64,000 nucleotides of DNA from Jatrophihabitans endophyticus. Lineage in GTDB: Bacteria > Actinomycetota > Actinomycetes > Mycobacteriales > Jatrophihabitantaceae. Each line of letters begins with the position of its first letter. The stretch's first letter is position 1. The position numbers and the translations under genes are program-made. The notes under the pieces are model-generated. The model had not been told where the DNA came from and made no database searches. It saw nothing but the letters and a program-made list of their open reading frames with translations. The stretch is from NCBI RefSeq assembly GCF_900129455.1, contig NZ_FQVU01000003.1, positions 806,001 through 870,000 on the forward strand, given 5' to 3'. Positions 1-37,987 of this stretch are shown piece by piece.

Positions 1-1078
1 GCCAGAGCGGCGGGACGTAGGCCAAGAGGATCATCGCCGCGTAGCCCGCCGGCAGCTGCGGTGACTCGTCGAAGTGGCGCAGCGACTGGTAGCGCCGGGT
101 GGGATTGGCGTGGTGGTCGCTGTGGCGCTGCAGGTGGTAGAGGAACAGGTTCGTCGTCAGGTGGTTGGAGTTCCAGCTGTGCCGCGGCGTCACCCGCTCG
201 GGCCGGCCGCGCTCGGTCGTCTCCCGCAGCAGGCCGTAGTGCTCGAGGTAGTTCACGGCTTCGAGCAGGCTGAAGGCGAGGACGGCCTGGCCGAGCAGGT
301 AGGGCAGGACGCCGACGCCGAAGAGCGCGATCGTCACCGCCCAGAGCACGAGCGTCATGGCCCAGGCGTTGAGGACGTCGTTGCGCAGCGTCCACACGCC
401 CGTGTCCAACCGCCGCAGCCGGGTGCGTTCGAGCCGCCAGCCGTTGACCACGCTGCCCCGGACCGTCCGCGGCCAGAAGCGCCAGAAGGACTCGCCGAGC
501 CGACTGGAGGCCGGGTCGTCGGCGGTCGCGACCCGGACGTGGTGGCCGCGGTTGTGCTCGATGAAGAAGTGGCCGTAGCCGCTCGGGGCGAGCGCGATGC
601 GGGCGAACCAGCGCTCCAGATGCTCCTTCTTGTGGCCGAGCTCGTGGGCGGTGTTGATCGCGATGCCGTTGAGCAGGCCGAGCGTCGTCATGACGCCGAG
701 GCGGTCGATCACCGTCATTCCGTCGCCCCGGGTCATCAGCCAGAACCCGGTGAAGAACGCGACGAACTGGCACGGCAGGAACAGGTAGGTGACCCACCGG
801 TAGTAGCGGTCCTGCTCCAGCCAGGCCAGCGCCTCCTCGGGCGCGTTGTTGCGGTCGTCGCCGATCACGACGTCGAGCAGCGGGATGAGCGCGTGCACGA
901 CCATCGGCCCGATCCACCAGAAGAGGCCGAGCCCGGTCAGCTCGACCAGCCCCCAGCCGGCGAACAGGAACAGCGGCACCACCGTCCCCAGCAGCCAGAG
1001 GTAGCGCTTGCGGTCGCGCCAGCGGGGGCGGTCGGTCGCGGCGGCGGCGAGCTGGCGGCTGGACATCGACAGGCGCAT
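1..1078 (-). CDS. alkB: alkane 1-monooxygenase, C-terminus cut by window edge
   Basis: Membrane di-iron hydroxylase that oxidises the terminal methyl of alkanes, normally with electrons from rubredoxin. Translation from the ATG at 1078 shows the whole AlkB histidine signature in order: HELGHKK, EHNRGHH, NYLEHYG and LQRHSDHH, with hydrophobic helices before and between them. The frame stays open to base 1, so the C-terminus (and any fused or following rubredoxin) lies outside the window; about 359 residues are visible. The ATG sits 7 nt after a TACGGT -10 hexamer, so the mRNA is probably leaderless and this start is favoured over the internal Met five codons in. The next gene upstream on the same strand is the GH3 beta-glucosidase, with no obvious functional link. 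Confidence 0.93.
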   Translation of the reverse strand, partial: MRLSMSSRQLAAAATDRPRWRDRKRYLWLLGTVVPLFLFAGWGLVELTGLGLFWWIGPMVVHALIPLLDVVIGDDRNNAPEEALAWLEQDRYYRWVTYLFLPCQFVAFFTGFWLMTRGDGMTVIDRLGVMTTLGLLNGIAINTAHELGHKKEHLERWFARIALAPSGYGHFFIEHNRGHHVRVATADDPASSRLGESFWRFWPRTVRGSVVNGWRLERTRLRRLDTGVWTLRNDVLNAWAMTLVLWAVTIALFGVGVLPYLLGQAVLAFSLLEAVNYLEHYGLLRETTERGRPERVTPRHSWNSNHLTTNLFLYHLQRHSDHHANPTRRYQSLRHFDESPQLPAGYAAMILLAYVPPLW

Positions 1079-1085
1079 GGTCCAG

Positions 1086-1114
1086 ACCGTAGACACGAAC
1101 CCTGGATTTGTAAA
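1086..1114 (-). promoter_or_regulatory. alkB promoter, leaderless type
   Basis: On the minus strand TTTACA (1114-1109) and TACGGT (1091-1086) are separated by exactly 17 nt, and TACGGT is followed by 7 nt and the alkB ATG. This is the best-formed -35/-10 pair in the window and predicts transcription starting at or next to the A of the start codon. Confidence 0.65.
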
Positions 1115-1143
1115 CGGCGGCCCGCTGGGTCGCCCGCCGCGGG

Positions 1144-3480
1144 TCAGACCACCCGGAGCTCGTCGGTGAGGGGGGTGTCGTCCGAGCTGGTGCCGGCGTA
1201 GACGTGGATGGTGCCGCGCTCGACCACGAACCGGGCGTCGCCGTCGTAGAAGCCGACGTCGCTCGGCGTCAGCGTGAAGCGGACGGTGCGCGAGGCGCCC
1301 GCCGCGAGTGTCACCCGCTGGAACCCGCGCAGCCGTCGCACCGGCTGCACCACCGAGGCCACCGGGTCGTGGATGTAGAGCTGGACGACCTCGTCACCGG
1401 CGACCTCGCCGGTGTTGCGCACCGTCACCGTCACCGACACCGAGCCGCCGGAGCGGTGCAGGGTGTGCGAGCTCAGCCGCAGGTCGGCGACCGCGAAGGT
1501 CGTGTACGACAGCCCGAAGCCGAACTCGAGCTGCGGGCCGCTGGGCAGGTCGAGGTATTTCGACGTGTACTTGTTGTCCGGGTCGGCGGGCCGTCCGGTG
1601 TTCTCGTGGTTGTAGTAGATCGGCACCTGACCGACGCTGCGGGGGAAGCTGACCGGCAGCTTGCCGCCGGGGTTCACGGCACCGGTGAGCACGTCGGCGA
1701 TCGCGTTGCCGCCCTGCGAGCCGGGCGCCCACGCCTCCAGGACGGCGGGTGCGGCGGCGAGCACGTCGGCGATGGTGAGCGGCCGGCCGTTGATCAGCAC
1801 CACCGCGGTGCGCTTCGCGGCGGCCGCCACCGCCTCCACCAGCCGGCTCTGGACGCCGGGCAGACCGATGTCGCTGCGGGCAGCCGCCTCGCCGCTCATG
1901 TCGGCGGTCTCGCCGACGGCCAGCACGACCGCGTCGGCCTTGCGGGCAGCGGCCACCGCGGCGGCGAAGCCGGAGGTGTCGGTGCCGTTGACGTCGCACC
2001 CCTTCACGTACACGACGGCCTTGCCCGCTGCCTGCAGACCGGCCTCGATGGTGACCGGAGGCGTGACCGGTCCGAGCCCGGCCCAGGTGCCGTTCAGGTC
2101 GGTCGTCGCTCGACCGAGCGGACCGACGAGGGCGACCGTCTTCACCCCGGAGCCGAAGGGCAGCACGTCGTCCTCGTTGCGCAACAGCACCATCGAGCGC
2201 GCGGCCGCGGCGCGCGCCGCCTTGGCGTTCGCGGCGCTGATCGTGGTCACCGCTCGCTTCGGGTCGGTGTAGGGGTTCTCGAACAGGCCGAGGCGGAACT
2301 TGATGCGCAACAGCCGCCGCACGGCGTCGTCGATCTCGCGCCGGGTGACGCGCCCGGCCGCGAGCAGGGCCACGCCGAAGTCGACGTAGTTGGTGCTCAC
2401 CATCTCCATGTCGACGCCGGCGTTGAGGCCGGCCGCGGCGGCATCGGCCCCGCCGCCGGCGAGCCCGTGGTTGATGAGCTCCTGGATGCCGGTGTAGTCG
2501 CTGACGACGAAGCCGTCGAAGTCGTAGCGCTCCTTGAGGACCTCGCGGATCGCGTACTCGCTGCCGTGCGCCGGAACGCCCGCGATGGTGTTGAACGACG
2601 CCATCGCCGTGGCCACCCCGGCCCGCACCGCGGCGAGGAACGGCGGCAGGTACAGGTTGTGCAGTCGCTGCAGCGACACGTCGACGGTGTTGTAGTCGCG
2701 CCCGCCCTCCGCGCCGCCGTAGGCGACGTAGTGCTTCATGCAGGCGGCCAGCCGGTCGCGCGCGGAGTAGTCCGAGCCCTGGTAGCCGTCGACCTTGGCC
2801 GCGGCGAAGGCGGCGGTGAGGAACGGGTCCTCGCCGTTGCCCTCGGCGATCCGGCCCCAGCGGGGCTCGTGGGTGACGTCCATCATCGGCGCGTAGGTCC
2901 AGTGCTGGCCACTGGCCCGTGCCTCCGCGGCGGAGATGCGCCCGTCGGTGCGCGCGACCTCGGGGTCCCAGCTGCTCGCCGTGCCCAGCGGGATCGGGAA
3001 GTTCGTGACGTACCCGTGGATGACGTCGAGGCCGAAGATGAGCGGGATGCCCAGACGGGTCTTCTCGACGGCCTGGTGCTGCACCGCGTCGAGCACGGCG
3101 GAGTCGGTGACGCTGAACAGTCCGCCGACCCCGCCGGCGGTGCCCAGCCCGGCCTTCGCGAGATCGGCGGTGTTCACCAGCTGCAGCTGACCGAGCTTCT
3201 CGGCGAGCGTCATGCGCCGCAGCAGCGCGTCGATGCGGCGCTCCGTCGCGCGGTCCGGACGGCCGTGACCGGGACGGCGCCGGTCGGCGGGCAGGGCGGG
3301 GTCGGCGGATCCGCGCGAGCCCCCGTGGCCGCGGTCCGCGGCCGGGTCGGCATCGGCCCGCGTGGCCCCGAGCAGGCCGGTGGCGGACGCTGCGCCGAGG
3401 GCGGTCGCCCCCGCGGCGGCGCCGAGCAGCCGACGGCGGCTCGGGCCGGTCGCCGGACGGGGATCGAGGGTGTCGGACAT
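1144..3480 (-). CDS. bglX: Tat-exported glycoside hydrolase family 3 beta-glucosidase
   Basis: Secreted beta-glucosidase/exo-glycosidase of 778 residues. The N-terminus has a twin-arginine signal ([11 protein letters not shown], residues about 14-24, then a hydrophobic stretch), so it is probably exported folded. A low-complexity Arg/Gly/Pro linker leads into the GH3 N-domain ([11 protein letters not shown]), the nucleophile motif [11 protein letters not shown] with Asp328, the GH3 C-domain and a C-terminal fibronectin-III-like domain after [11 protein letters not shown]. Length and order match the BglX group. A good Shine-Dalgarno (GAAGGAG, 5 nt from ATG) supports the start. It stands alone, divergent from pafA. 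True substrate (cellobiose, laminaribiose, xylobiose) cannot be read from sequence. Confidence 0.93.
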
Positions 3481-3632
3481 GTCCGCTCCTTCGCGGTCGT
3501 GGATCGGGACCTGCGGTCACTCTCGCCCTCCAGCGGCAAAAGTGTCCAGACCGAACAAACCCGCTCACACTCGCGCTTCACCTGTGTGGTGTCGTCCGTC
3601 CCGAGCGACGGGCGGCGACCGCCTCGCGCGGA

Positions 3633-3638
3633 TAGGCT
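3633..3638 (+). promoter_or_regulatory. pafA -10 element, leaderless type
   Basis: TAGGCT followed by 7 nt and the pafA GTG. The intervening GGAGGG could also act as a Shine-Dalgarno if transcription begins further upstream. Confidence 0.5.
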
Positions 3639-3645
3639 GGAGGGC

Positions 3646-5013
3646 GTGCAGAAGCGGATCATGGGCATCGAGAACGAGTACGGGGTCACCTGCACGTTCC
3701 ACGGCCAGCGCCGCCTCTCGCCCGACGAGGTGGCGCGCTACCTGTTCCGGCGGGTGGTGTCGTGGGGCCGTTCGTCCAACGTGTTCCTCAAGAACGGCGC
3801 CCGGCTCTACCTCGACGTCGGCAGCCACCCCGAGTACGCGACCCCCGAGTGCGATTCGCTGACCGGCCTCGTCGCGCACGACAAGGCCGGCGAGCGCGTG
3901 CTCGAGGGTCTCGTCGTCGACGCCGAGAAACGGCTGCACGACGAGGGCATCGCCGGCGACATCTACCTGTTCAAGAACAACACCGACTCGGCCGGCAACT
4001 CCTACGGCTGCCACGAGAACTACCTCGTGGGCCGCCACGGCGAGTTCAGCCGGCTCGCCGACGTGCTCATCCCGTTCCTCGTCACCCGCCAGCTGATCTG
4101 CGGCGCCGGCAAGGTGCTGCAGACGCCGCGGGGCGCGGTGTTCTGCGTCAGCCAACGCGCCGAGCACATCTGGGAGGGCGTGTCGTCGGCGACCACCCGC
4201 AGCCGTCCCATCATCAACACGCGCGACGAGCCGCACGCCGACGCCGAGCGCTACCGGCGGCTGCACGTCATCGTCGGCGACTCGAACATGAACGAGTCGA
4301 CCACGCTGCTCAAGGTGGGCTCGGCCGACCTCGTGCTGCGCATGATCGAGCAGGGCGTGCAGTTCCCCGACCTCATGCTGGAGAACCCGATCCGCGCGAT
4401 CCGCGAGATCAGCCACGACCTCACCGGCACGCGTCCGGTGCGCCTCGCGGCCGGCCGGGGCGCGTCGGCGCTGCAGATCCAGCGCGAGTACTACTCGCGC
4501 GCGGTCGACTTCGTCGGGCGCAGCGGCGACCCCGCCGGCGACGGGTCGGACAAGCGCGTCCTCGAGCTCTGGGGCCGGGCGCTGGACGCCGTCGAGTCGC
4601 AGGATCTCTCGCTCATCGACCGGGAGATCGACTGGGCCACCAAGTACCAGCTGATCGAGCGGTACCGCGCCAAGCACGACCTGCCGCTGAGCTCGCCCCG
4701 CGTCGCCCAGCTCGACCTCGCCTACCACGACATCTCGCGCACCCGCGGGCTCTACTACCTGCTGCAGCGCAAGGGAGCGGTCGAGCGGGTCGTCGGCGAC
4801 CTCGCCGTGTTCGAGGCCAAATCCGTGCCGCCGCAGACGACCCGGGCCAAGCTGCGCGGCGACTTCATCAAGCGCGCGCAGGAGCGGCGGCGCGACTTCA
4901 CCGTGGACTGGGTGCACCTCAAGCTGAACGACCAGGCCCAGCGCACCGTCCTGTGCAAGGATCCCTTCCGCAGCGTCGACGAGCGGGTCGAGAAGCTCAT
5001 CGCGTCCATGTAG
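3646..5013 (+). CDS. pafA: Pup-protein ligase PafA
   Basis: Cytoplasmic ATP-dependent ligase that joins the C-terminal Glu of the ubiquitin-like Pup to lysines of target proteins, marking them for the actinobacterial proteasome. The 455-residue protein begins [14 protein letters not shown]9 and E11 are the expected ATP/Mg ligands of the glutamine-synthetase-like fold and D57 in [15 protein letters not shown] matches the catalytic base. Full length with the conserved C-terminal domain. The GTG at 3646 is fixed by the conserved N-terminus and a TAGGCT hexamer 7 nt upstream. Followed by pafB and pafC, as in other actinobacteria; pup, dop and the proteasome subunits are not in this window, so they must lie elsewhere. 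Confidence 0.97.
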
Positions 5014-5116
5014 CGCACCGGCAGGTACCGGTGGGTTGGTCGCGTCCGGAAGAATCGCGTGACATGGGGACGGGGCAGCCGGGGGTGTCGTCACCGCGTC
5101 GTGCCAGGACAGGGCT

Positions 5117-5122
5117 TACGTT
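5117..5122 (+). promoter_or_regulatory. pafB -10 element, leaderless type
   Basis: TACGTT followed by 7 nt and the ATG at 5130. It supports starting PafB at the conserved MAARRAERLVNLV rather than at the ATG 66 nt upstream (5064). Confidence 0.5.
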
Positions 5123-5129
5123 CGAGGAC

Positions 5130-6083
5130 ATGGCGGCACGGCGGGCGGAACGACTGGTGAACCTCGTCATCTGCCTGCTCTCGACCCGCCAGTTCCTCGG
5201 CGCCGAACGCATCCGCGACGCCGTGCCCGGGTACGAGGCGGCCGACGGCGCGCGGGCGACCGACGACGCGTTCAAGCGCATGTTCGAGCGCGACAAGGCC
5301 GAGCTGCGCGATCTCGGCATCCCGCTCGAGACCGGCCGCAACAGTCACTTCGACAGCGAGGACGGCTACCGCATCCGGCGTGGCGACTACGAGCTGCCGA
5401 CCATCGAGTTCGACGCCGACGAGGCCGCGGCCGTCGGGCTCGCCGCCCGCCTGTGGCAGTCGGCCACCCTCGGCGAGCCCGCCCGGCAGGCGCTGATCAA
5501 GCTGCGCGCCGCCGGCACCGAGGTCCGCACCGCCGACGCCCCCGGCGCGATGCCGCAGCTCGACGCCAGCGACCCCAGCCTGCCCTCGCTGCTCGACGCC
5601 GCCCGCACCGCCACCGTCGTCCGCTTCGACTACGTCAAGGCCGGCGCCGACGCCGCGCTGGAACGCACGCTCGAACCGTGGGGGGTGCTGTCCTGGCGCC
5701 GACGCTGGTACGTCGCCGGGTTCGACCGCGACCGCGGCGAGCCGCGCAGCTTCCGCCTCTCCCGGATCGCCGGCGCCGTGCGCACGGTCGGTGCGCCGGA
5801 CGCCTTCACGCGTCCCGAGCACGTGGACCTGCTCGGCCTCGTCGCCGGCCGCAACCCCGAGGACGGCCGGACGGCGCGGGTCCGCGTGTCCGGGCACGGC
5901 GCGGGTCAGCTGCGACGACTCGCCCAGCGGGAGGCCGGCGACGTGCTGTCGATCGGCTACACCGACACCGAATGGCTGGCGCGGCTCATCGCGGCGGCCG
6001 GCGCGGGTGCGCACGTCCTCGAACCGGACGACCTCGCCGCGGCGGTCGTCGGCCGGTTGCGCGCCGTGACGGGGGTGCGCTGA
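5130..6083 (+). CDS. pafB: DNA-damage transcription activator subunit PafB
   Basis: WYL-domain regulator, one half of the PafBC activator that drives the LexA-independent DNA-damage response of actinobacteria. The 317-residue protein opens with a winged-helix DNA-binding domain (ERLVNLVICLLSTRQFLGAE), followed by a WYL domain (about residues 140-210, motif WRRRWYVAGFDRDRGE) and a C-terminal WCX extension. The start at 5130 matches family N-termini; 5064 would add 22 unconserved residues. It overlaps pafC by 1 nt (TGATG), so the subunits are translationally coupled. The name reflects its position by pafA; family work places it in DNA damage rather than pupylation. Confidence 0.94.
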   Translation: MAARRAERLVNLVICLLSTRQFLGAERIRDAVPGYEAADGARATDDAFKRMFERDKAELRDLGIPLETGRNSHFDSEDGYRIRRGDYELPTIEFDADEAAAVGLAARLWQSATLGEPARQALIKLRAAGTEVRTADAPGAMPQLDASDPSLPSLLDAARTATVVRFDYVKAGADAALERTLEPWGVLSWRRRWYVAGFDRDRGEPRSFRLSRIAGAVRTVGAPDAFTRPEHVDLLGLVAGRNPEDGRTARVRVSGHGAGQLRRLAQREAGDVLSIGYTDTEWLARLIAAAGAGAHVLEPDDLAAAVVGRLRAVTGVR

Positions 6084-7063
6084 TGGCGGGCAAGACACGC
6101 TCGGCCAACGAGGAGCGGCTGCCCCGGCTGCTGGCCCTCGTGCCTTACCTGCAGGCCCGGCCCGGCATCGGCGTCGAGCAGGCGGCGGCCGACTTCGGTG
6201 TCAGCGGCGCGCAGCTGCGCAAGGACCTCACCCTGCTGTGGATGTGCGGGCTGCCCGGTCACGGTCCCGGCGACCTCATCGACCTCTCCTTCGAGGGCGA
6301 GGGCGTCTCGGTCGTGTTCGACGCGGGGATGTCGCGGCCGCTGCGCCTGACGGCCGAGGAGGCGCTGGCCCTCGTGGTCGCCCTGCGCACCCTCGCCGAG
6401 ACCCCCGGGCTCGCCGACACCGACGCGGTCGCCCGGGCGCTCGCGAAGGTCGAGTCGGCGGCCGGTGGCGCCGTCCCCGACGAGACCGTCGCCGTCGAGC
6501 TCGACGCGCGCGAGCGGTTCGTCCCGCTGCTGCGCCGCGCCCTCGACGGCCACCGCGCGCTGTGGCTGCGCTATTACAGCGCGACCCGCGACGAGACCAC
6601 CGAGCGCACGATCGACCCGGTCCGGCTCTTCGAGGCCGACGGCGAGACCTACGTCGAGGCGTGGTGCCGTCGCGTGGAGGGCATGCGGATGTTCCGGGCC
6701 GACCGCATCGACGACCTGCGGCTGCTCGACGAGCCGGCCGCGGTGCCCGACAACGTCGAGCTGCGTGACCTCGCCGAGGGGGTCTTCCAACCGGCGGCCG
6801 AGCACCTGCTCGTCGACCTGCGGGTGGGGCCGGCCTACGCCTGGGTCGCGGACTACTACCCGACCGAGCGGACCGTCGAGGACGGCGCGCTGCTGGTGAT
6901 CAGCCTGCGTGTGGCCGACCCGGCGTGGGTGCGCTCCCTCGTGCTCGGCTCGGCCGGGCAGGTCGAGGTCCTGGCGCCCGACTGGCTCGCCGAGGGGGTG
7001 CGTGACGACGCCGCCCGCGCGCTCGCGCGCTACGCCGACGAGCCGTCGACCGGGCCGAAGTAG
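6083..7063 (+). CDS. pafC: DNA-damage transcription activator subunit PafC
   Basis: Partner WYL-domain regulator of PafB, 326 residues. It has an N-terminal winged helix (LPRLLALVPYLQARPGIGVEQ), a WYL domain around residues 150-215 (ALWLRYYSATRDE, then FEADGETYVEAWCRRVEGMRMFRADRI) and a WCX C-terminal domain. PafB and PafC form a heterodimer that responds to DNA damage and acts with sigma-A on promoters carrying an upstream-shifted recognition element; a matching element precedes uvrA at 34992-35014. The ATG shares its A with the pafB stop. The pafC stop codon TAG forms the first three bases of the -10 hexamer for the next gene. Confidence 0.94.
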   Translation: MAGKTRSANEERLPRLLALVPYLQARPGIGVEQAAADFGVSGAQLRKDLTLLWMCGLPGHGPGDLIDLSFEGEGVSVVFDAGMSRPLRLTAEEALALVVALRTLAETPGLADTDAVARALAKVESAAGGAVPDETVAVELDARERFVPLLRRALDGHRALWLRYYSATRDETTERTIDPVRLFEADGETYVEAWCRRVEGMRMFRADRIDDLRLLDEPAAVPDNVELRDLAEGVFQPAAEHLLVDLRVGPAYAWVADYYPTERTVEDGALLVISLRVADPAWVRSLVLGSAGQVEVLAPDWLAEGVRDDAARALARYADEPSTGPK

Positions 7064-11081: not shown

Positions 11082-11114
11082 GAGCGCGCGACGACGAGCG
11101 GACGAGGTGTGGTC

Positions 11115-12131
11115 ATGACCGAGCAGGGCGGCGATTCGGGCTCCGACCGGGGTACGGGCAACCAGTGGGGCGACCCCGTGCACAGCCAGCGCAGCCCGGG
11201 GTCGGCGGACATCAATCGTCCCGGCGACGCCGCCGGGTCCGGCGCCGGCTCGTCCGCGGCGGGGCACGGCGACTCGCAGGCGTACCGCCAGCCGGGCTAC
11301 GGCGAGCAACAGCACGGCGAACAGGGCTACGGGCAGCAGGATTACGGGCAGCAGGATTACGGCCAGCAGGATTACGGCCAGCAGGATTACGGCCAGCAGG
11401 ATTACGGCCAGCAGGATTACGGCCAGCAGGATTACGGCCAGCAGGGCTACGGGCAGCAGGCTTACGGGCAGCAGGCTTACGGGCAGCAGGGCTACGGGCA
11501 GCAGGGCTACGGGCAGCAGGGCTACGGGCAGCAGGGCTACGGCCAGCAGGGCTACGGCCAGCAGGGCTACGGGCAGCAGGGCTACGGGCAGCAGGATCAC
11601 GGCGGGTCGGACGCCGGCACCCAGCAGTACGGCGCGCAACCGGGCGCGTACGGCACCCAGGCGTATCCCGCGCAGCCGGCCGACTACGGCCACCAGTACG
11701 GCACCCAGCAGTACGGTCAGCCGGCCGATTACGGCCAGCAGTACGGCACGCAGCAGTACGGGAGCCAGCAGTACGGCCAGCCCGGGTACGGCCAGTACTC
11801 CGGCCAGCCGGGTGCCGGGCCGCGCACGAGCCGCAAGGGGCTCTGGATCACCCTCGGCGCGATTGTCGTCGCGCTGGCCGCGGCTGCCGTCCTCGTGTTC
11901 GTGGTGTTCCCGACCCAGCTCGGCATCTCGGACAAGAAGCTCAGCCATACGGCCGTCGAGAACTACATCGCCAGCAAGCTCGACGCCGACGACGTGGACT
12001 GCAACGGCGGCCAGGACTTCACGATGGCCAAGGACGGTGACACGTTCACCTGCCGCGCCGGTGGCGGCACCACGTTCACCGTCACCATCACCGACAAGGA
12101 CGACGGCCGCTACAGCGTCAGCGGCGGCTGA
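11115..12131 (+). CDS. membrane protein: Gln/Gly/Tyr pentapeptide repeats, one TM helix, DUF4333-like domain
   Basis: A 338-residue protein in three parts. Residues 1-235 are low-complexity and rich in Gln, Gly and Tyr, including 18 uninterrupted five-residue units of the form (D/G/A)YGQQ (residues 71-160). Then come a basic patch (RTSRKG), one transmembrane helix (about 238-262, [20 protein letters not shown]) and a roughly 65-residue extracytoplasmic domain with two Cys (VDCNGG, FTCRAG) resembling DUF4333. The positive-inside rule puts the repeats in the cytoplasm. ATG 11115 is preferred over GTG 11109 because GAGGTG lies 5 nt upstream. A homologous-looking architecture is encoded at 21080-21826. 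Function unknown. Confidence 0.85.
11325..11594 (+). repeat. 18-unit, 15-bp in-frame tandem repeat (VNTR-like)
   Basis: Eighteen consecutive 15-bp units encode (D/G/A)YGQQ. Units fall in blocks: one GY, seven DY, one GY, two AY, seven GY. Several adjacent units are identical at the DNA level apart from the GGC/GGG glycine codon, the pattern left by recent slippage or unequal crossover. Copy number is likely to vary between strains. Confidence 0.97.
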
Positions 12132-12149
12132 CCCCGGCGCCGTCAGCCG
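12125..12149. terminator. bidirectional hairpin containing both convergent stop codons
   Basis: CGGCTGAC and GTCAGCCG form a perfect 8-bp stem with a 9-nt loop. The TGA of the plus-strand membrane protein (12129-12131) and the TGA of the minus-strand exonuclease (12145-12143) both lie in the stem, so one sequence probably ends both transcripts. Confidence 0.6.
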
Positions 12150-13045
12150 ACGGCGGCGGCGATGGCCTTGTGCATCCGTGCGACCGAGCTCGCCACGCCG
12201 AGCTCGTCGGCCAGCGCGGCGAGCCGGTCCGGGTCGCGTGGGGACGCGGGCAGGTGGTCGGCGACCTCCGCCACCGCGGCGTCGGTCCGGCCCCGCACGG
12301 CGGCCGGCGCGACGGCGAGGTAGTCGCGGGCCTTGCGGACCTTCGCGGCGGCGCCGGCGGGGAATCCGTCGTCGCCCGCGTCGGCGGCGGCGACGATGTC
12401 CTCGATCGCGCCGAAGCGGCCGACGAGCGCGGCCGCGGTCTTCTCCCCGACACCGGGGACGCCGGGCAGCCCGTCGCTCGGATCGCCCCGCAGCACCGCG
12501 AAGTCGGCGTAGTGCGCGGCCGGGACGCCGTACTTGGCGAGCACCTCGGCCGGCCCGAGCGTCTCCAGCCTCGCCAGCCCGCGCCCCGTGTAGAGCACGG
12601 TCACCCGCTCGGTCGCGAGCGCGATCAGGTCGCGGTCGCCGGTGACGACCTCGACCGGGTCCTCGTCGCGCTCGGCGAGCGTGGCGATCACGTCGTCGGC
12701 CTCGAAACCCTCGGCGCCGGCGCAGGCCAACCCGAACGCGGTGAGCACCTCGAGCAGCAGCGGCACCTGCGGCGACAGCGCGTGCGGGACCTCCTCGCCA
12801 CCGTCCTTCGCGACCCGGTGCGCCTTGTAGGTGGGGACGAGCTCGACCCGGAACGCGGGACGCCAGTCGAGGTCGAGGCACGCGACCCAGCGCGCCGGTC
12901 GACGACGCTCGATCAGCGAGGCCGCCATGTCGAGGAAGCCGCGGACGGCGTTGACGGGCCGGCCGTCGGGCGCCGTGATCGACTCCGGCACCGCGTAGAA
13001 CGCGCGGAAGTAGAGCCCGGCCGCGTCCACCAGCATGAGGCTCAC
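12143..13045 (-). CDS. FEN-like 5'-3' exonuclease (PIN/H3TH fold)
   Basis: A 300-residue free-standing 5'-3' exonuclease/flap endonuclease like the N-terminal domain of DNA polymerase I. Visible motifs: LVDAAGLYFRAFYA (first metal-binding Asp), EADDVIATLAE, TGDRDLIALA, and the helix-hairpin-helix region DPSDGLPGVPGVGEKTAAAL. Starts with GTG, whose bases overlap the LacI regulator stop (GTGA), so the two are translationally coupled. A second, different FEN-like protein is encoded at 18116-19147. Mycobacteria also carry such a gene next to helY. Likely substrates are 5' flaps or RNA primers during Okazaki-fragment maturation or repair. Confidence 0.93.
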   Translation of the reverse strand: MSLMLVDAAGLYFRAFYAVPESITAPDGRPVNAVRGFLDMAASLIERRRPARWVACLDLDWRPAFRVELVPTYKAHRVAKDGGEEVPHALSPQVPLLLEVLTAFGLACAGAEGFEADDVIATLAERDEDPVEVVTGDRDLIALATERVTVLYTGRGLARLETLGPAEVLAKYGVPAAHYADFAVLRGDPSDGLPGVPGVGEKTAAALVGRFGAIEDIVAAADAGDDGFPAGAAAKVRKARDYLAVAPAAVRGRTDAAVAEVADHLPASPRDPDRLAALADELGVASSVARMHKAIAAAVG

Positions 13046-14076
13046 GCCGAGCCGCCCGGCCCGTCCCCGGGGGCGCGGGTGGAGTTGCGCACGACCAGCT
13101 CGGTCGGCAGCGTCACCGACGGGTCCCGCGCGACCCCGCCGTCGGAGTCGGCGATCAGGTTGAGCAGCCGCGTCGTGATGTCGAGGGCCTGCTCGGCCAC
13201 CGGCTGCCGGACGGTGGTGAGGTCCATCAGGTCGGAGAAGGGCTGGTCGTCGAAGCCGACGACCGAGATGTCCTCGGGCACCCGCAGCCCACGGTCGTGG
13301 ATGGCCCGCAGCGCGCCGTAGGCCATCTCGTCGCTCTCCGCGAATAGCGCCGTCGGCGGCTCGGGCACGGCGAGCAGCCGCTGTGCCGCCTCGATGCCGC
13401 CCTCGACGGTGAAGAAGCCCAGCTGCTCGAGAGCCGGGTCCGGCTCGACGCCGACGGCGGCGAGGGCCCGGTGGTAGCCGGTGCGGCGGTGCAGGGGCGG
13501 GGTGAAGCGCATGGGGTCGTCGGTGTCGCCGCCGATGAGGCCGACGCGCCGATGGCCGAGGGAGGTCAGGTAGGTGACGGCGTCGCAGGCCGCGGCGATG
13601 TCGTCGATGCCGGCCGACAGCGTGCCCCGCCGCTCGATGCCCAGCAGCCCCACGGGCAGGTCGAGGTCCTCGAGCGCCGCGAACTCGGCGTCGTCGAGGA
13701 CGAGGCTCGCGACGATGACTCCGTCCACGCGCTTGCGCATGGGCATGACGTCGAAGAACCGGTCGCGTCCGCTGGGGTCGCCGAGGTTGTACAGCAGCAG
13801 GTCGAAGTTCTCGCGCCGGAGCGCGTTCTCGACGGTCGCGATGACCTCGGAGAAGAACCAGCGGTTGACGAAGGGCACGACCAGCCCGACCGTCGTGGTG
13901 CGTCCGCTCGCCAGCCGGGCCGCGAACGGCGAGGCGACGTAGTCCAGCTCGGCCGCCGCGGCCAGTACGCGGTCGCGGGTCGCGGTGGCGACGTCGGGCA
14001 GCCCGCGCAGTGCACGCGACACCGTGGCGATCGAGACGCCGGCACGACGCGCGACGTCCTCGATGCTCGCGACCAT
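13042..14076 (-). CDS. LacI-family transcriptional regulator
   Basis: A 344-residue repressor. The N-terminal helix-turn-helix reads IEDVARRAGVSIATVSRALRG, followed by the hinge and a periplasmic-binding-protein-like ligand domain (VGLVVPFVNRWFFSEV ... VVGFDDQPFSDLMDLTTVRQ). The ATG at 14076 gives the canonical family N-terminus; transcription probably starts below the TAGCGT at 14119-14114. It is coupled to the exonuclease gene by a GTGA overlap and is divergent from the amidohydrolase at 14171, so it may regulate itself and that gene. No sugar transporter or glycosidase is adjacent, so the ligand is unknown. Confidence 0.92.
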   Translation of the reverse strand: MVASIEDVARRAGVSIATVSRALRGLPDVATATRDRVLAAAAELDYVASPFAARLASGRTTTVGLVVPFVNRWFFSEVIATVENALRRENFDLLLYNLGDPSGRDRFFDVMPMRKRVDGVIVASLVLDDAEFAALEDLDLPVGLLGIERRGTLSAGIDDIAAACDAVTYLTSLGHRRVGLIGGDTDDPMRFTPPLHRRTGYHRALAAVGVEPDPALEQLGFFTVEGGIEAAQRLLAVPEPPTALFAESDEMAYGALRAIHDRGLRVPEDISVVGFDDQPFSDLMDLTTVRQPVAEQALDITTRLLNLIADSDGGVARDPSVTLPTELVVRNSTRAPGDGPGGSA

Positions 14077-14092
14077 CGCCTCGACCCCCCGG

Positions 14093-14119
14093 TAGCGCAC
14101 GACTGTTGCGTGCACGCTA
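14093..14119. promoter_or_regulatory. inverted repeat between the divergent LacI and amidohydrolase genes
   Basis: A 27-bp segment begins TAGCG and ends CGCTA. Inside it GCACG and CGTGC form a second inverted pair with a 7-nt spacer. The minus-strand TAGCGT -10 hexamer of the regulator lies in it. It is a plausible LacI-family operator but only partly symmetrical. Confidence 0.35.
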
Positions 14120-14170
14120 CCTCCGCCCCGATGTCCCGGCGGGGACGGCACACGCTGGCACACTCGGATC

Positions 14171-15727
14171 GTGCCGACGCTGTACCGCAACGGATCCGTC
14201 CTGACGCCCACGCCGGCCGCGGCGACCGCACTGCTCGTCGACGGCGGGCGGATCGCCTGGATCGGCACGGCGGCCGCCGCGCCCGATCTCCCCGACCGCG
14301 ACGTCGTCGACCTCGCCGGGGGCCTCGTCGCACCGGCGTTCGTCGACGCGCACGTCCACACGACCGACACCGGGCTCGCGATCACCGGCCTGGACCTGCG
14401 GACGGCGCGCTCCCTGCGCGAGGCGCTCGACCTCGTCGAGCGGGCCGCCCGCGCGTCGCGGGGACGGCCGGTGCTCGGGGGCGGGTGGGACGAGACGACC
14501 TGGCCGGAGCAGCGTCCCCCGACGTCGGCGGAGCTCGACCGCGCCTCCTACGGCGGGCTGGTCTACCTGGCCCGCGTCGACATCCACTCGGCCGTGGCGT
14601 CGTCGTCGCTGCGCGCGGCCGTGCCGGGGCTCGCGGGGCTCGCGGGCGACCGCGGGGACGGCTGGGTCGGCGAGCCGGACGCCCACGACGCCGTGCGGCG
14701 CGCCGCGCTCGCCGCCGTCACCCGCGGCCAGCGACGCGACGCGCAGCGCGCCGCGCTGCGCCACGCGGCCGGGCTCGGCGTGGCGAGCGTGCACGAGATG
14801 GCCGGCCCGACGATCTCCGGCGAGGCCGACCTCGCCGACCTGCTCGCGCTCGCCGCCGTGGAGCCGCTGCCCGAGGTCGTGGGCTACTGGGGCGAGCTGC
14901 ACGGGATCGACACCGCCCGCGAGCTGGGCGCCACCGGGGCCGGTGGTGACCTGTTCTGCGACGGCTCGTTCGGATCGGCGACGGCGGCGCTGGGGGAGCC
15001 GTACGCCGACCGGGCCGGGGACGACCGGGGCTGGCTGCGTTTCGACACCGAGGACGTCGCCGCGCACATCGCGGCCTGCGTCGCGGCGGGCCTGCAGTCG
15101 GGCTTCCACGCCATCGGCGACGCCGCCGTGGACCAGGTCCTGGCCGCGGCCGAGCTCGTGACGGCGCGACTGGGCCACCCGCTGTGCCCCGGACACCGCC
15201 TCGAGCACGCCGAGTACGTGCGCGACCCCGCCCGGCTGGCGGCCAGCGGGCTGACGGCGTCGGTGCAGCCGTGCTTCGACGCGCTGTGGGGCGGCCGGAG
15301 CGGGATGTACGCCGAACGGCTGGGGCCCGATCGCGCGCTCGCCCTGAACCGGTTCGCCGACCTCGCGGCGGCCGGCGTGCCGCTGGCGTTCGGGTCCGAC
15401 TCGCCGGTCACCGGCATCGGCCCGTGGGCGGCGGTGCGCGCCGCCGTCGGGCATCACGACCCCGCCGCGGCGATCCCGCTCGAGGCCGCCTTCGCCGCGC
15501 ACACCCGCGGCGGGTGGCTCGCGGCCGGCCGCCGCGACGAGGGCACGCTCGCCGTCGGGGCCGCCGCCACCTTCGCGGTGTGGGACGTGTCGGGCCGGCC
15601 GCGACACGCGTCCGGGCTGCCCGACGTCGCCGCGACGCCGGCCGACGACCCGGGCCCGCGGTGCGTGACGACGGTACTGCGCGGTCGGACGCTGCACGCC
15701 GCCGACGACGCGACGCCACGGGCATGA
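14171..15727 (+). CDS. amidohydrolase (YtcJ-like, amidohydrolase_3 family)
   Basis: A 518-residue metal-dependent hydrolase. The N-terminal beta-sandwich strand ([12 protein letters not shown]) leads into the metal motif [10 protein letters not shown], the internal [11 protein letters not shown] segment typical of the N-substituted formamide deformylase/YtcJ branch, [21 protein letters not shown] and the C-terminal FGSDSPV Asp. The sandwich closes with [11 protein letters not shown]. First of four genes linked by 4-nt overlaps (amidohydrolase, lnt, ppm, exonuclease). GTG 14171 follows CACACT by 6 nt, a weak leaderless-type signal. The substrate cannot be inferred; the neighbours suggest housekeeping expression rather than a catabolic cluster. 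Confidence 0.85.
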
Positions 15728-15762
15728 CCGTCGCCTCAGCCGCCGGCAGCGATACTGGTCCG

Positions 15763-17367
15763 ATGACCGCCCTCGCCGCCGTCCGCCCGGCCGCGTTCCC
15801 GCGCCGGTGGGCGGCGCTGGTCGCCGTCGGCGGCGGCGTGATCGGGGTGCTCGCGTTCCCGACCGTCGGCTGGTGGCCCGCCGCGCTGCTGTCGGTGGCC
15901 ATGCTCTCGCTGGCGGTGGACGGCCGCCGCGCCCGCACCGGGGCGTGGCTGGGCTACGCCTACGGGCTCGCCTTCCTGCTGCCCCTCGTGCACTGGACCG
16001 GGGTGTACGTCGGTCCGGTGCCCTGGCTGCTGCTGTGCGCCGCGTGTGCCGCCTTCTTCGCGGTGCTCGGCGCCGTCCTCCCCGTCCTCGCCCGCGTGCC
16101 GGGTGGGGCGTTCTGGGTGGGCGCGGCGTGGGTGCTGCAGGAGTTCCTGCGCGATCGGCTGCCGTTCGGCGGCTTCCCGTGGGGGCGGCTGGCCTTCAGC
16201 CAGGCCACGTCGCCGCTGCGCTGGTTCGCCGCACTGGGCGGTGCGCCGCTCGTGACGTTCGCCGTCGCCGTGGCCGGCGCCGGGCTGGCCTCGGCGCTGC
16301 GTGCCGCGTGGCCGTGGCGCAGCCGAGGCGTGATCGCGGGCGCCGCCCTCGCACTCGCCGTCCCCGCCCTCGGCGCGCTGGTGGCGTGGCCGCTCGGCCC
16401 GGCCCCCGACCGCGACGGGCGCACCGAGCGGATCGCGGTCATCCAGGGCGGCCTGCCCGATCGCGGCCTGCAGTTCCAGGACCGTGCCCGCCAGGTGCTC
16501 GACAACCACGTGCGGCAGACGCTCGCCCTCGCGCGACGCATCGACGCGGGGGAGGTCGCCCGCCCGGATCTCGTGCTGTGGCCGGAGAACTCCTCGGACA
16601 TCGACCCGTACCGCGACGCGGCCGCCTACGCCGAGATCGACCGCGCGGTGAAGGCGGTGGGCGCGCCGGTGCTGGTCGGCGCGATCCTGCAGGGGCCGGG
16701 GGCCGACCACCGGCGCAACGCCGGGATCCTGTGGTCGCCGACGACCGGCCCCGGCGCCCGCTACGAGAAGCGGCACCCGGTGCCCTTCGCGGAGTACATC
16801 CCGCTGCGCGGCATCGCCGAGGCGGTCAGCTCGGACGCGAAGTCGGTCACGCAGGACATGGTGGCGGGGACGGGCGACGGCCTGCTGCGCGGCGGACCGG
16901 TCCCGCTCGGCGACGTCATCTGCTTCGAGGTGGCCTACGACGACCTCGTCCGCTCCTCGGTGTCGGCCGGGGCGCAGCTGCTCGTCGTGCAGACGAACAA
17001 CGCGACGTTCGGGCACACCGCCGAGACGTACCAGCAGCTGGCGATGAGTCAGCTCCGGGCCGTCGAGAGCGGCCGCACCGTCGTGCAGGCGTCGACGACG
17101 GGCGAGTCGGCCGTCATCGGCCCGGACGGCGGGATCCGCGCGCGGTCGGGCGCGCTGTTCACGCCGGCGACCCTGCTCGAGACGGTGCCGGTGCGCAGCG
17201 CGCAGACGCCGGCCACCGTGGTCGGGGCGTGGCCCGAGTACGTGCTGACCTTCCTCGCCGCCGCCGGCGTGCTCGCGGTGATCACGCTGCGGCGACGTCG
17301 CAGCGCGACCCCGGAGCCACCCCCGCCCGCAGCGCCGGCCCGCGACCAGGCCATGGTGACGACATGA
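15763..17367 (+). CDS. lnt: apolipoprotein N-acyltransferase
   Basis: Integral membrane enzyme that adds the third acyl chain to the N-terminal Cys of lipoproteins. The first ~210 residues form a multi-helix membrane block, followed by a nitrilase-like CN-hydrolase domain with the full catalytic triad: Glu in WPENSS, Lys in [14 protein letters not shown] and Cys in [10 protein letters not shown] last TM helix and a Pro-rich tail close the ~534-residue protein. ATG 15763 (6 nt after GATACT) is chosen; ATG 15724, which overlaps the amidohydrolase stop as ATGA, is an equally legal start and adds 13 residues. Its 3' end overlaps ppm by ATGA. In some mycobacteria Lnt and Ppm are fused; here they are separate. 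Confidence 0.93.
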
Positions 17368-18119
17368 GCCCGCAGACCGTCGGCCGCGTCCTCGTCGTGA
17401 TCCCGACCTACGACGAGCGCGACAACATCGAGATCATCCTGGCCCGACTGCGGTCGGCCGTGCCGACCGCGCACGTGCTCGTGGTCGACGACGGCAGCCC
17501 GGACGGCACCGGCAAGCTCGTCGAGTCGCTGGCCGATGACGACGACCACGTCCACCTCCTGCAGCGCACCGAGAAACGCGGGCTCGGCGCGGCCTACGTG
17601 GCCGGCTTCCGGTGGGGCCTCGACGCGGGGTACGACGTCCTGGTCGAGATGGACGCCGACGGCTCCCACTCGCCCGAGCAGCTGCCACGCCTGCTCACGG
17701 CGCTGGCCGACGCCGACCTCGTGCTCGGCTCGCGCTGGGTCCCCGGAGGCTCGGTGGTGAACTGGCCGCGGTCGCGCCAGCTGATCTCCCAGGGTGGCAG
17801 CCTCTACTCGCGCCTCGCCCTCGGTGTCGCGCTGCGCGACGTCACCGGCGGCTACCGTGCGTTCCGGCGCGACGTGCTCGAGGGCATCGACTACGCCGGC
17901 GTCGCCTCGCAGGGCTACTGCTTCCAGATCGACCTCGCGACCCGCGCACTCCGGGCCGGGTACCGCGTGGTCGAGGTCCCCATCACGTTCGTCGAACGGG
18001 AACGGGGCGAGTCGAAGATGAGCGGCGACATCGTCCGCGAAGCACTGATACGGGTGTCTCAGTGGGGGCTCGCGCACCGTCGCGACCAGCTGCGCGCGCG
18101 CTGGGGGCGCCGGCGATGA
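17364..18119 (+). CDS. ppm1: polyprenol monophosphomannose synthase (GT2)
   Basis: A 251-residue family-2 glycosyltransferase that transfers mannose from GDP-mannose to polyprenyl phosphate, making the donor for protein O-mannosylation and lipoglycan assembly. Motifs: [13 protein letters not shown] at the N-terminus, [11 protein letters not shown], the DXD-like [22 protein letters not shown] and the C-terminal [16 protein letters not shown]. No C-terminal membrane domain. Overlaps lnt upstream (ATGA at 17364) and the exonuclease downstream (ATGA at 18116). The lnt-ppm pairing next to rbpA matches other actinobacteria. Confidence 0.93.
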
Positions 18120-19147
18120 CCGATGCGACCGTGCTGGTGGTCGACGGCAACTCCCTCGTCCACCGCAGCTTCCACGCGCAGGCCCACACCGGGGAGCCGG
18201 CGTGGGCGGTGCGTGGCCTGCTGACCCAGCTGGTCGCCGCCGTGGATCGCATCCGGCCGGTCGGCGTCGTGGTGGGGTTCGACGACCCCGAGCGGTCGCT
18301 GCGCCGCGAACGGTGGCCGCAGTACAAGGCGAACCGCGGCGAGAAGCTGGACACCCTGGTCGAGCAGCTCGCCGACGCGGTGGCGACGCTGCGTGAGCTC
18401 GGCCTGGCCGTCGTCGTCCCGCCCGGTCTGGAGGCCGACGACGTGCTGTGCTCGACCGCCGCGGTCGCCGCGCGCGCCGGGGCCAGGACGGTCGTGGTGA
18501 CCTCCGACCGCGACGCGTTCGCGCTGATCGACGACACCACGTGCGTGCTGCGCATCATCAACGGCGGGGTCGAGGCGTCCCCGCTGATGACGCCCGACCG
18601 GCTGGTGACCCTCCTCGGCGTGCGCCCCGAGCAGTACCGGGACTTCGCCGCGCTCCGTGGCGACCCGTCGGACAACCTGCCGGGCGTACGCGGTGTGGGG
18701 CCGCGCACCGCGGCGCGTCTGCTCGCCGCGTTCGGCACCGCCCGGGCCGCGTTCGACGACCTGGCCGCCGTGCGCACCCACCTCGGGGCGGGGGTCACGG
18801 CGCGGTTGGCGGCCCCCGGGGCCCGCGCCGCGTGGGAGCTCAACTGCCAGGTCATGACGATGCGTGACGACGTCGAGATCGGACTGGCGCTCGACGCCGG
18901 GCCGGGCGTGCTGCCGCTGCCGGCCGAGGTCGTCGACCGGGTCTACCGTTCGCACCGCCTCACCTGGTCGGCGGGGCAGGCCGTGCGCGTGCTCGCCGAG
19001 GTCGACGCGGACGTGCCGGTGCCGACCTACGCCGACGCCGGCGGTGACGACTGGTTCCCGACGGGCACCACGGCGCCCCGCCGCGTCCCGCGGCTGCCCC
19101 GTGCCACACCCCGCACGCCGAGCTCGGAGCAGCTGTCGCTGTTCTGA
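18116..19147 (+). CDS. second FEN-like 5'-3' exonuclease with C-terminal clamp-binding motif
   Basis: A 343-residue PIN-fold 5' nuclease. Motifs: [57 protein letters not shown] and the H3TH region [21 protein letters not shown]. After the nuclease core an unstructured Arg/Pro/Thr tail ends in SEQLSLF; QLSLF is the textbook bacterial beta-sliding-clamp binding motif at the extreme C-terminus, absent from the 12143-13045 paralogue. It is the last of four overlapping genes whose other members handle lipoproteins and polyprenol sugars, so expression is tied to growth. Likely role: clamp-directed flap or primer removal. A hairpin follows at 19160-19192. Confidence 0.92.
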
Positions 19148-19159
19148 CCGGGACGCGAG

Positions 19160-19192
19160 ACGGCCGCCCGGAGAGATCCTCCGGACGGCCGT
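19160..19192. terminator. bidirectional hairpin terminator between exonuclease and rbpA
   Basis: Two 14-nt arms (19160-19173 and 19179-19192) pair with one mismatch around a 5-nt loop, giving a very GC-rich stem between the convergent genes. There is no T-tract, as usual in high-GC actinobacteria. Confidence 0.7.
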
Positions 19193-34991: not shown

Positions 34992-35014
34992 TTGTCGGTC
35001 GACGTCATTACTCT
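34992..35014 (+). promoter_or_regulatory. LexA-independent DNA-damage promoter (RecA-NDp / PafBC type) of uvrA
   Basis: TTGTCGGTC (34992-35000), exactly 8 nt, then TACTCT (35009-35014). The published actinobacterial motif is TTGTCRGTG-N8-TAnnnT; all invariant positions match and only the terminal G is C. It lies 36 nt upstream of the uvrA GTG and predicts a leader of about 30 nt containing an AAGAGAG ribosome-binding site. Confidence 0.8.

Positions 35015-35050: not shown

Positions 35051-37987
<2,937 letters not shown>

Follow-up and report, generated by a model that had tools for sequence, protein, structure and literature searches.

A stand-alone FEN-family nuclease of actinobacteria with a conserved C-terminal motif of the predicted sliding-clamp-binding type

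The 64,000-nt stretch of Jatrophihabitans endophyticus DNA analysed here (contig NZ_FQVU01000003.1, positions 806,001 to 870,000; hereafter the window) encodes a FEN-like nuclease that ends in a sliding-clamp-type motif and lies directly behind lnt and ppm, which raises the questions of what this enzyme does, whether its tail is a clamp ligand, and whether its neighbours bear on its function. The nuclease, referred to as clamp-FEN, is composed as follows.

18116-19147 (stop included), + strand: the clamp-FEN gene, assigned from its translation, Pfam, PDB matches, AlphaFold2/Foldseek and a tree.
18116-19000, + strand: the folded FEN core, about residues 1-295, delimited by the alignment of relatives and by pLDDT values that mostly exceed 90 as far as residue 290.
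19001-19129, + strand: a linker (about residues 296-338) of divergent sequence and probably disordered, recognized by its pLDDT and low column identity.
19079-19099, + strand: a second conserved patch within the linker, RRVPRLP, residues 322-328, found by a pattern count against shuffled sequences.
19130-19144, + strand: the clamp-binding-type motif QLSLF, residues 339-343, kept in relatives and agreeing with the consensus given in PMC11139829.

The ORF begins with ATG, ends with TGA and encodes 343 amino acids with the C-terminus SSEQLSLF. Both Pfam domains 5_3_exonuc_N (114.8 bits, cut-off 34.3) and 5_3_exonuc (64.1 bits, cut-off 40) scored above their cut-offs, and the assignment to the PolA-type 5'-3' exonuclease/FEN family, proposed in the original prediction as a FEN-like exonuclease, was thus confirmed at the level of sequence. 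The nearest solved relatives by sequence were the DNA polymerase I (Pol I) of Mycobacterium smegmatis (6vde, 1.2e-41) and that of Taq (5e-33), and FenA matched at 9.4e-18 in the PDB sequence search. In an alignment with 64 relatives, D10, D56, E106, D108, D109, D131, D133, D183 and D186 were invariant, and D108, D133 and D186 corresponded to D125, D148 and D208 of FenA when the printed alignment (6c33 versus the FenA of the window) was read by eye. The full set of FEN active-site acidic residues appears to be kept, and the enzyme is predicted to be catalytically intact. The AlphaFold2 model had a mean pLDDT of 90.6, with block means of 55, 51, 61 and 51 over residues 301-340 and 38 for the last three residues. 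Its best Foldseek matches were a plastid exonuclease, E. coli ExoIX (TMt up to 0.89) and M. smegmatis FenA (0.74-0.75), and the FEN1-PCNA-ligase complex 7qo1 was among the weak matches.

A second stand-alone FEN gene is located in the same window.

12143-13045, - strand: the FenA orthologue, a paralogue without the tail, assigned from PDB 6c33, its translation and the tree.

This protein matched M. smegmatis FenA (PDB 6c33) at 1.6e-85 and ended in ...MHKAIAAAVG, in agreement with the original statement that the paralogue lacks the motif. The further suggestion that it has another duty was not supported, since it is the orthologue of a characterised flap endonuclease. When 114 FEN sequences were analysed by maximum likelihood (tree displayed with a midpoint root), the 78 clamp-FEN sequences formed a clade apart from the 24 FenA (the only FenA sequences placed in the tree) and 12 PolA sequences with a support of 100/99, indicating that clamp-FEN is not a FenA orthologue. 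The window genome encodes one member each of clamp-FEN, FenA and PolA, and its PolA retains the FEN domain. Clamp-FEN lies 5 kb from fenA through local placement only; no match to helY or FenA (at least 45% identity) was present in the flanks of 80 named relatives. The interval between helY and fenA (11109-12131, + strand) encodes a DUF4333-containing protein in which nearly identical repeats form a long array.

According to PMC11139829, QL(S/D)LF is the clamp consensus and the motif is defined as Q-aliphatic-x-[LM]-[FL], to which QLSLF conforms. The motif would also be accessible, as the C-terminus of the model is flexible with block pLDDT values below 62 from residue 301, and one DnaN-type match was detected in the window genome. 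A first search for relatives recovered 27 orthologous loci, and all 26 with a complete end terminated in LF followed by 0-2 residues (24 Q[LM][SAT]LF, one ELTLF and one GDTLF); the first refuting case named in the original prediction, a motif not conserved in close homologues, was thus not encountered. Among the named relatives, which are the best 80 of 462 confirmed in GTDB genomes, 77 had a complete 3' end, and 60 of these ended in L[FW] plus 0-2 residues as compared with 5 of 673 neighbouring ORFs (Fisher p ~1e-66, relatedness ignored). A stricter pattern composed after the tails were seen, [QED][LMPAEDTI][STA]L[FW] plus 0-2 residues, was found in 55/77 relatives and 0/673 neighbouring ORFs. 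The original description of SEQLSLF as a canonical clamp motif at the C-terminus was therefore borne out as to the ending and its conservation.

The 17 relatives without such an end consisted of L046, which lies beside a contig end, and 16 members of one Nocardioides/Aeromicrobium-type clade (support 100/100) in which the whole tail is absent. This clade comprises L085-L088, L094, L096-L100, L103-L105, L108, L111 and L112, and its tail was either lost or never present; in certain other Nocardioides the copy is tailed. Both branches of the first fork of the clamp-FEN clade, the Micromonosporaceae-type and the main group, contain the motif, a distribution compatible with a tail that was ancestral and lost once, the deep forks being weakly supported (89/45 and 87/79).

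The linker, on the other hand, was almost unalignable: over 42 positions the commonest residue reached a frequency of 0.56 once and 0.41 once, and otherwise at most 0.33. The motif is thus firmly judged, from these sequences, to be strongly conserved while the linker drifts. Within the linker, the pattern R..[FYHL][PG][PKR]L, defined post hoc, was present in 36/61 tails against a mean of 5.3 and a maximum of 12 in 500 shuffles, and this patch is possibly a second partner site. The LF-type end was absent from FenA (0/24; 24 relatives' loci, one of them cut by a contig end, plus the window's own), from PolA (0/12), and from 17 stand-alone FEN loci of other actinobacterial groups (L202-L217 and L219, two with an internal stop). 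It was present in all 22 NucS loci read (of 26 matches). Binding of QLSLF to the sliding clamp is accordingly a well-supported prediction, backed by this conservation.

Among 61 genomes of the order, clamp-FEN was detected in 27 (best match 1.7e-64 or better), namely 21/24 of the window's family and 6/37 outside it, whereas a FenA-size stand-alone match, counted from the listing, was present in 60, the exception being a 63% complete genome (G023). The order genomes overlap with the named loci, so that the two counts are not independent. Clamp-FEN was also rare in a sample of 396 genomes of the phylum, among the matches listed: the strongest were the window's own, one tailed (G367, EDDQLSLF) and one tail-less (G422), and the next among those listed were other stand-alone FENs without LF ends, followed by PolA. 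Such a patchy distribution argues for an accessory role. A phage or plasmid origin was considered and rejected: the nuclease matched 92 phage and 150 plasmid records, all below 60% identity, and several of the 8/92 and 10/150 matches listed were PolA.

The upstream regions of the relatives gave a further indication of the role. A LexA-independent damage promoter, tTGTCRgtg-8 nt-TannnT, has been described (PMC5656591), and sites resembling this PafBC damage promoter occur in many relatives, where the start is leaderless and TGTCG is placed 8 nt from an AGAGT-like -10. An earlier scan without fixed spacing was replaced by a spaced test with control ORFs, in which the start distance was fixed at 5-9 nt and the threshold at 12, the weights and threshold being set after the sites had been seen. 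Scores of at least 12 were obtained for 22/59 main-group clamp-FEN genes versus 14/563 control ORFs (Fisher p 8e-16, relatedness ignored), for 1/15 of the Micromonosporaceae/Geodermatophilaceae-type genes and for 0/16 of the tail-less ones; the sites often had no T at the first -10 position. As a positive control, all 20 recA upstream regions examined (of 25 matches, 5 partial ones being left out) scored 13.5-16.9, 18 of them at least 15.2. Damage induction of clamp-FEN appears likely in part of the relatives, as judged from these sites. The window nuclease showed no P1-type promoter, its best leaderless score being 8.2, and the best P1 score on the + strand of 13901-18140 was 12.9, inside lnt.

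The window also contains the putative regulator of such promoters.

5580-6721, + strand: two adjacent WYL-domain matches (5580-5774 and 6524-6721; PF13280), next to helY.

These matches (G000:C3:811580-811774 and 812524-812721 in genome coordinates) lie in ORFs ending at 6083 and 7063, which we read as pafB/pafC-like, the names being given by interpretation. In the region of about 1-7063, the WYL genes adjoin an upstream ORF that resembles the Pup ligase PafA by eye, and helY and fenA follow further on, an order known from mycobacteria. The FenA protein (MSMEG_3883) is reported to be 1.6-fold lower in a pafBC mutant (PMC5656591). Elsewhere in the window, a P1 (PafBC)-type site, TTGTCGGTC-N8-TTACTCT, is located at 34992-35014 (+), 36 nt before uvrA (35051-37987, 978 aa with Pfam UvrA domains), and is the only one scoring at least 14.5 on either strand.

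The strongest alternative is the one originally put forward, namely that clamp-FEN is the main primer/flap nuclease of Okazaki fragments while FenA has another duty. The clamp sits at every Okazaki junction, primer removal in Bacillus subtilis is reported to depend primarily on a discrete FEN rather than on Pol I, this FEN being proposed as the main Okazaki nuclease (PMC10191290), and with 21/24 genomes the gene may be near fixation in the window's family. However, the absence of clamp-FEN from 34/61 order genomes as against the near-universal FenA-size match, the FEN-containing PolA of the window genome, the rarity among the matches listed for the phylum sample, and the damage-type promoter in a share of relatives all speak against it, and we consider such a replicative role unlikely.

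Another candidate role, less probable still, is that of the 5'-3' exonuclease acting after NucS in actinobacterial non-canonical mismatch repair, with both enzymes recruited by the clamp. NucS has the same kind of LF end (22/22) in the same genome set, and according to PMC11551767, M. smegmatis uses a limited 5'-3' exonuclease after NucS, which is not FenA, removal of fenA having left NucS repair unchanged. On the other hand, M. smegmatis-type genomes, as assigned by inference, had no clamp-FEN match among those listed and yet perform NucS repair, and NucS is present in genomes without clamp-FEN, so that this assignment appears improbable.

It could also be asked whether the LF end serves as a degradation tag or as a ligand of a partner other than the clamp. 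The second motif position, aliphatic in the consensus, was acidic in 16 of 70 tails. Since these 70 rows had been picked for [LM][FW] at positions 4-5, only positions 1-3 provide a fair test, and there Q occupied position 1 in 62/70 (0.89) and S, T or A position 3 in 68/70. In addition, 10/70 tails continued for 1-2 residues beyond F, which argues against a strictly terminal degron, and NucS carries the same kind of terminus. A tag or foreign ligand is thus a very improbable explanation of the tail.

The remaining question concerned the association with lnt and ppm.

17364-18119, + strand: a ppm-type glycosyltransferase gene directly upstream of the nuclease (Pfam Glycos_transf_2; ATGA overlap).
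19160-19192, no strand assigned: a terminator-like inverted repeat, read by eye, between the nuclease and the convergent rbpA.

The ATG of the nuclease (18116-18118) lies inside an ATGA shared with the ppm stop, and the start of ppm overlaps the end of lnt (TIGR00546, 252.4 bits versus a cut-off of 132.9) likewise at 17364-17367; upstream, an amidohydrolase gene (14171-15727, Pfam Amidohydro_3) is followed by lnt after 35 nt. The 4-nt overlap and the gene order given in the original prediction were therefore correct, and the nuclease is probably co-transcribed with lnt-ppm in the window genome. Twenty ppm loci were read, comprising 17 relatives with ppm facing rbpA, G024, G002 and the window itself. 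The nuclease was absent between ppm and the convergent rbpA in all 17 relatives, the gap being below 150 nt in 11 (G001, G003, G004, G005, G006, G007, G011, G012, G013, G014 and G025) and 0.5-1.3 kb in 6 (G026, G027, G028, G030, G031 and G033); in G024, rbpA was not found within the 1.5 kb flank of ppm. In the complete genomes G006 and G012, the coordinates place clamp-FEN and ppm 0.75 and 1.75 Mb apart; G010 and G015 were left out of this statement because their best ppm match was only 44% identical.

Within the genus, G001 has an empty ppm-rbpA junction, with a similar inverted repeat directly 3' of ppm (by eye) and the nuclease on another contig. In G002, one contig breaks off within the nuclease gene, which there faces rbpA in convergent orientation, and another starts within ppm, so that this genome probably shares the arrangement of the window, the join itself falling between contigs. 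Neither lnt nor a ppm orthologue nor rbpA was found in the flanks (up to 6 kb, many shorter) of any of the 80 named relatives, two weak glycosyltransferase matches (27-36% identity) having been dropped. Clustering of the neighbours of these loci and the window, with flanks of differing length and with gene order not displayed for 12/80 loci where the ORF caller missed the target, revealed no frequent neighbour, and a conserved neighbourhood of clamp-FEN was accordingly rejected. As to a vacated ancestral site in the window genome (G000), the asparaginase-like neighbour of the G001 nuclease had no match there, and in G006 its coordinates are about 0.14 Mb away from those of the nuclease.

Given this synteny, the linkage to lnt-ppm is most simply a derived, local arrangement, and it looks as if the nuclease gene came to lie between ppm and the terminator-like repeat by a recent move. 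A function together with Lnt and Ppm in envelope biogenesis, which the ATGA overlap and probable co-transcription might suggest, is hardly credible against the 17 empty junctions, the 0/80 flanks and the megabase-scale separations, and a functional link to lipoprotein or mannolipid synthesis was rejected on these grounds. The puzzle originally raised, why the nuclease is expressed with lipoprotein and mannolipid enzymes, thus largely dissolves, because the linkage was seen only in the window genome and probably in one other of the genus.

Taken together, we consider it probable that clamp-FEN has an accessory role in repair, in which a catalytically intact flap endonuclease/5'-3' exonuclease would be tethered to DnaN by its C-terminal QLSLF. 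We infer a repair rather than a replication role from the patchiness and the promoters only. The original designation as the replication flap/primer nuclease is difficult to reconcile with 27/61 as against 60/61 genomes and with a PolA that keeps its own FEN domain. In the proposed mechanism, QLSLF, at the end of a flexible tail some 45 residues long, would bind DnaN, the tether would bring the nuclease to 5' ends behind the loaded clamp, and the nuclease would trim 5' flaps or 5' ends arising from repair or from interrupted lagging-strand synthesis. In many relatives, the enzyme would probably be induced by DNA damage via the leaderless PafBC-type promoter, and its place behind ppm in the window genome would reflect recent relocation rather than a lipoprotein or mannolipid role. 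A bolder version, to which we give somewhat less than even credence, is that clamp-FEN may constitute a third actinobacterial 5' nuclease family, permanently clamp-tethered and PafBC-induced in many species, as a counterpart of FEN1-PCNA for damage repair that in one genus exchanged its own damage promoter for a housekeeping operon.

As for known systems, M. smegmatis FenA (MSMEG_3883, PDB 6c33-6c36) is a stand-alone actinobacterial FEN with the same fold, and its mutated active-site aspartates correspond to residues invariant in clamp-FEN; it differs in belonging to another clade (100/99), in lacking the tail (0/24) and in having its own copy in the window. The FEN domain of Pol I (M. smegmatis 6vde, Taq) gave the best sequence matches among solved structures, but clamp-FEN has no polymerase part and forms a separate clade, and the PolA C-termini are without the motif (0/12). 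E. coli ExoIX/Xni and B. subtilis FEN (YpcP) are discrete bacterial FENs like clamp-FEN, which, however, scored only 95 bits against NF007017 (NCBIfam; cut-off 261) and thus fell outside the Xni family. A word search of the main text on the B. subtilis FEN (PMC10191290) gave no hit for "clamp" or "DnaN". More generally, the cited passages of these papers present bacterial flap nucleases as a Pol I domain or as discrete enzymes and describe no clamp link, and the open-access literature covered (titles, abstract openings and passages) yielded no description of a discrete bacterial FEN with a clamp motif.

Stand-alone FEN-like nucleases have been surveyed in PMC12926913, which describes PolA2/APEX as confined to Actinobacteria and, with its internal QxxLF, as a predicted client of the clamp; unlike clamp-FEN, it is a polymerase without a FEN domain. 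The window genome has a second A-family polymerase match (G000:C1:370689-371582), possibly PolA2/APEX. Such second matches were common in genomes with and without clamp-FEN, and an obligate pairing was rejected because the 99% complete G006 has clamp-FEN and one A-family match only. EndoMS/NucS, also an actinobacterial nuclease, likewise ends in an LF clamp motif, and its last five residues are needed in vivo in M. smegmatis (PMC11551767), but its fold is unrelated and its action mismatch-specific.

The closest analogy to the proposed tether is offered by human FEN1-PCNA, in which a C-terminal peptide holds a FEN on the sliding clamp. Human FEN1 binds PCNA through a PIP box, whereas clamp-FEN belongs to an independent family and has a bacterial-type clamp motif instead. 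A discrete FEN whose clamp tail is conserved would thus be a bacterial parallel to FEN1-PCNA, and clamp-FEN offers a directly testable candidate for the processing of 5' ends coupled to the clamp during repair in actinobacteria.
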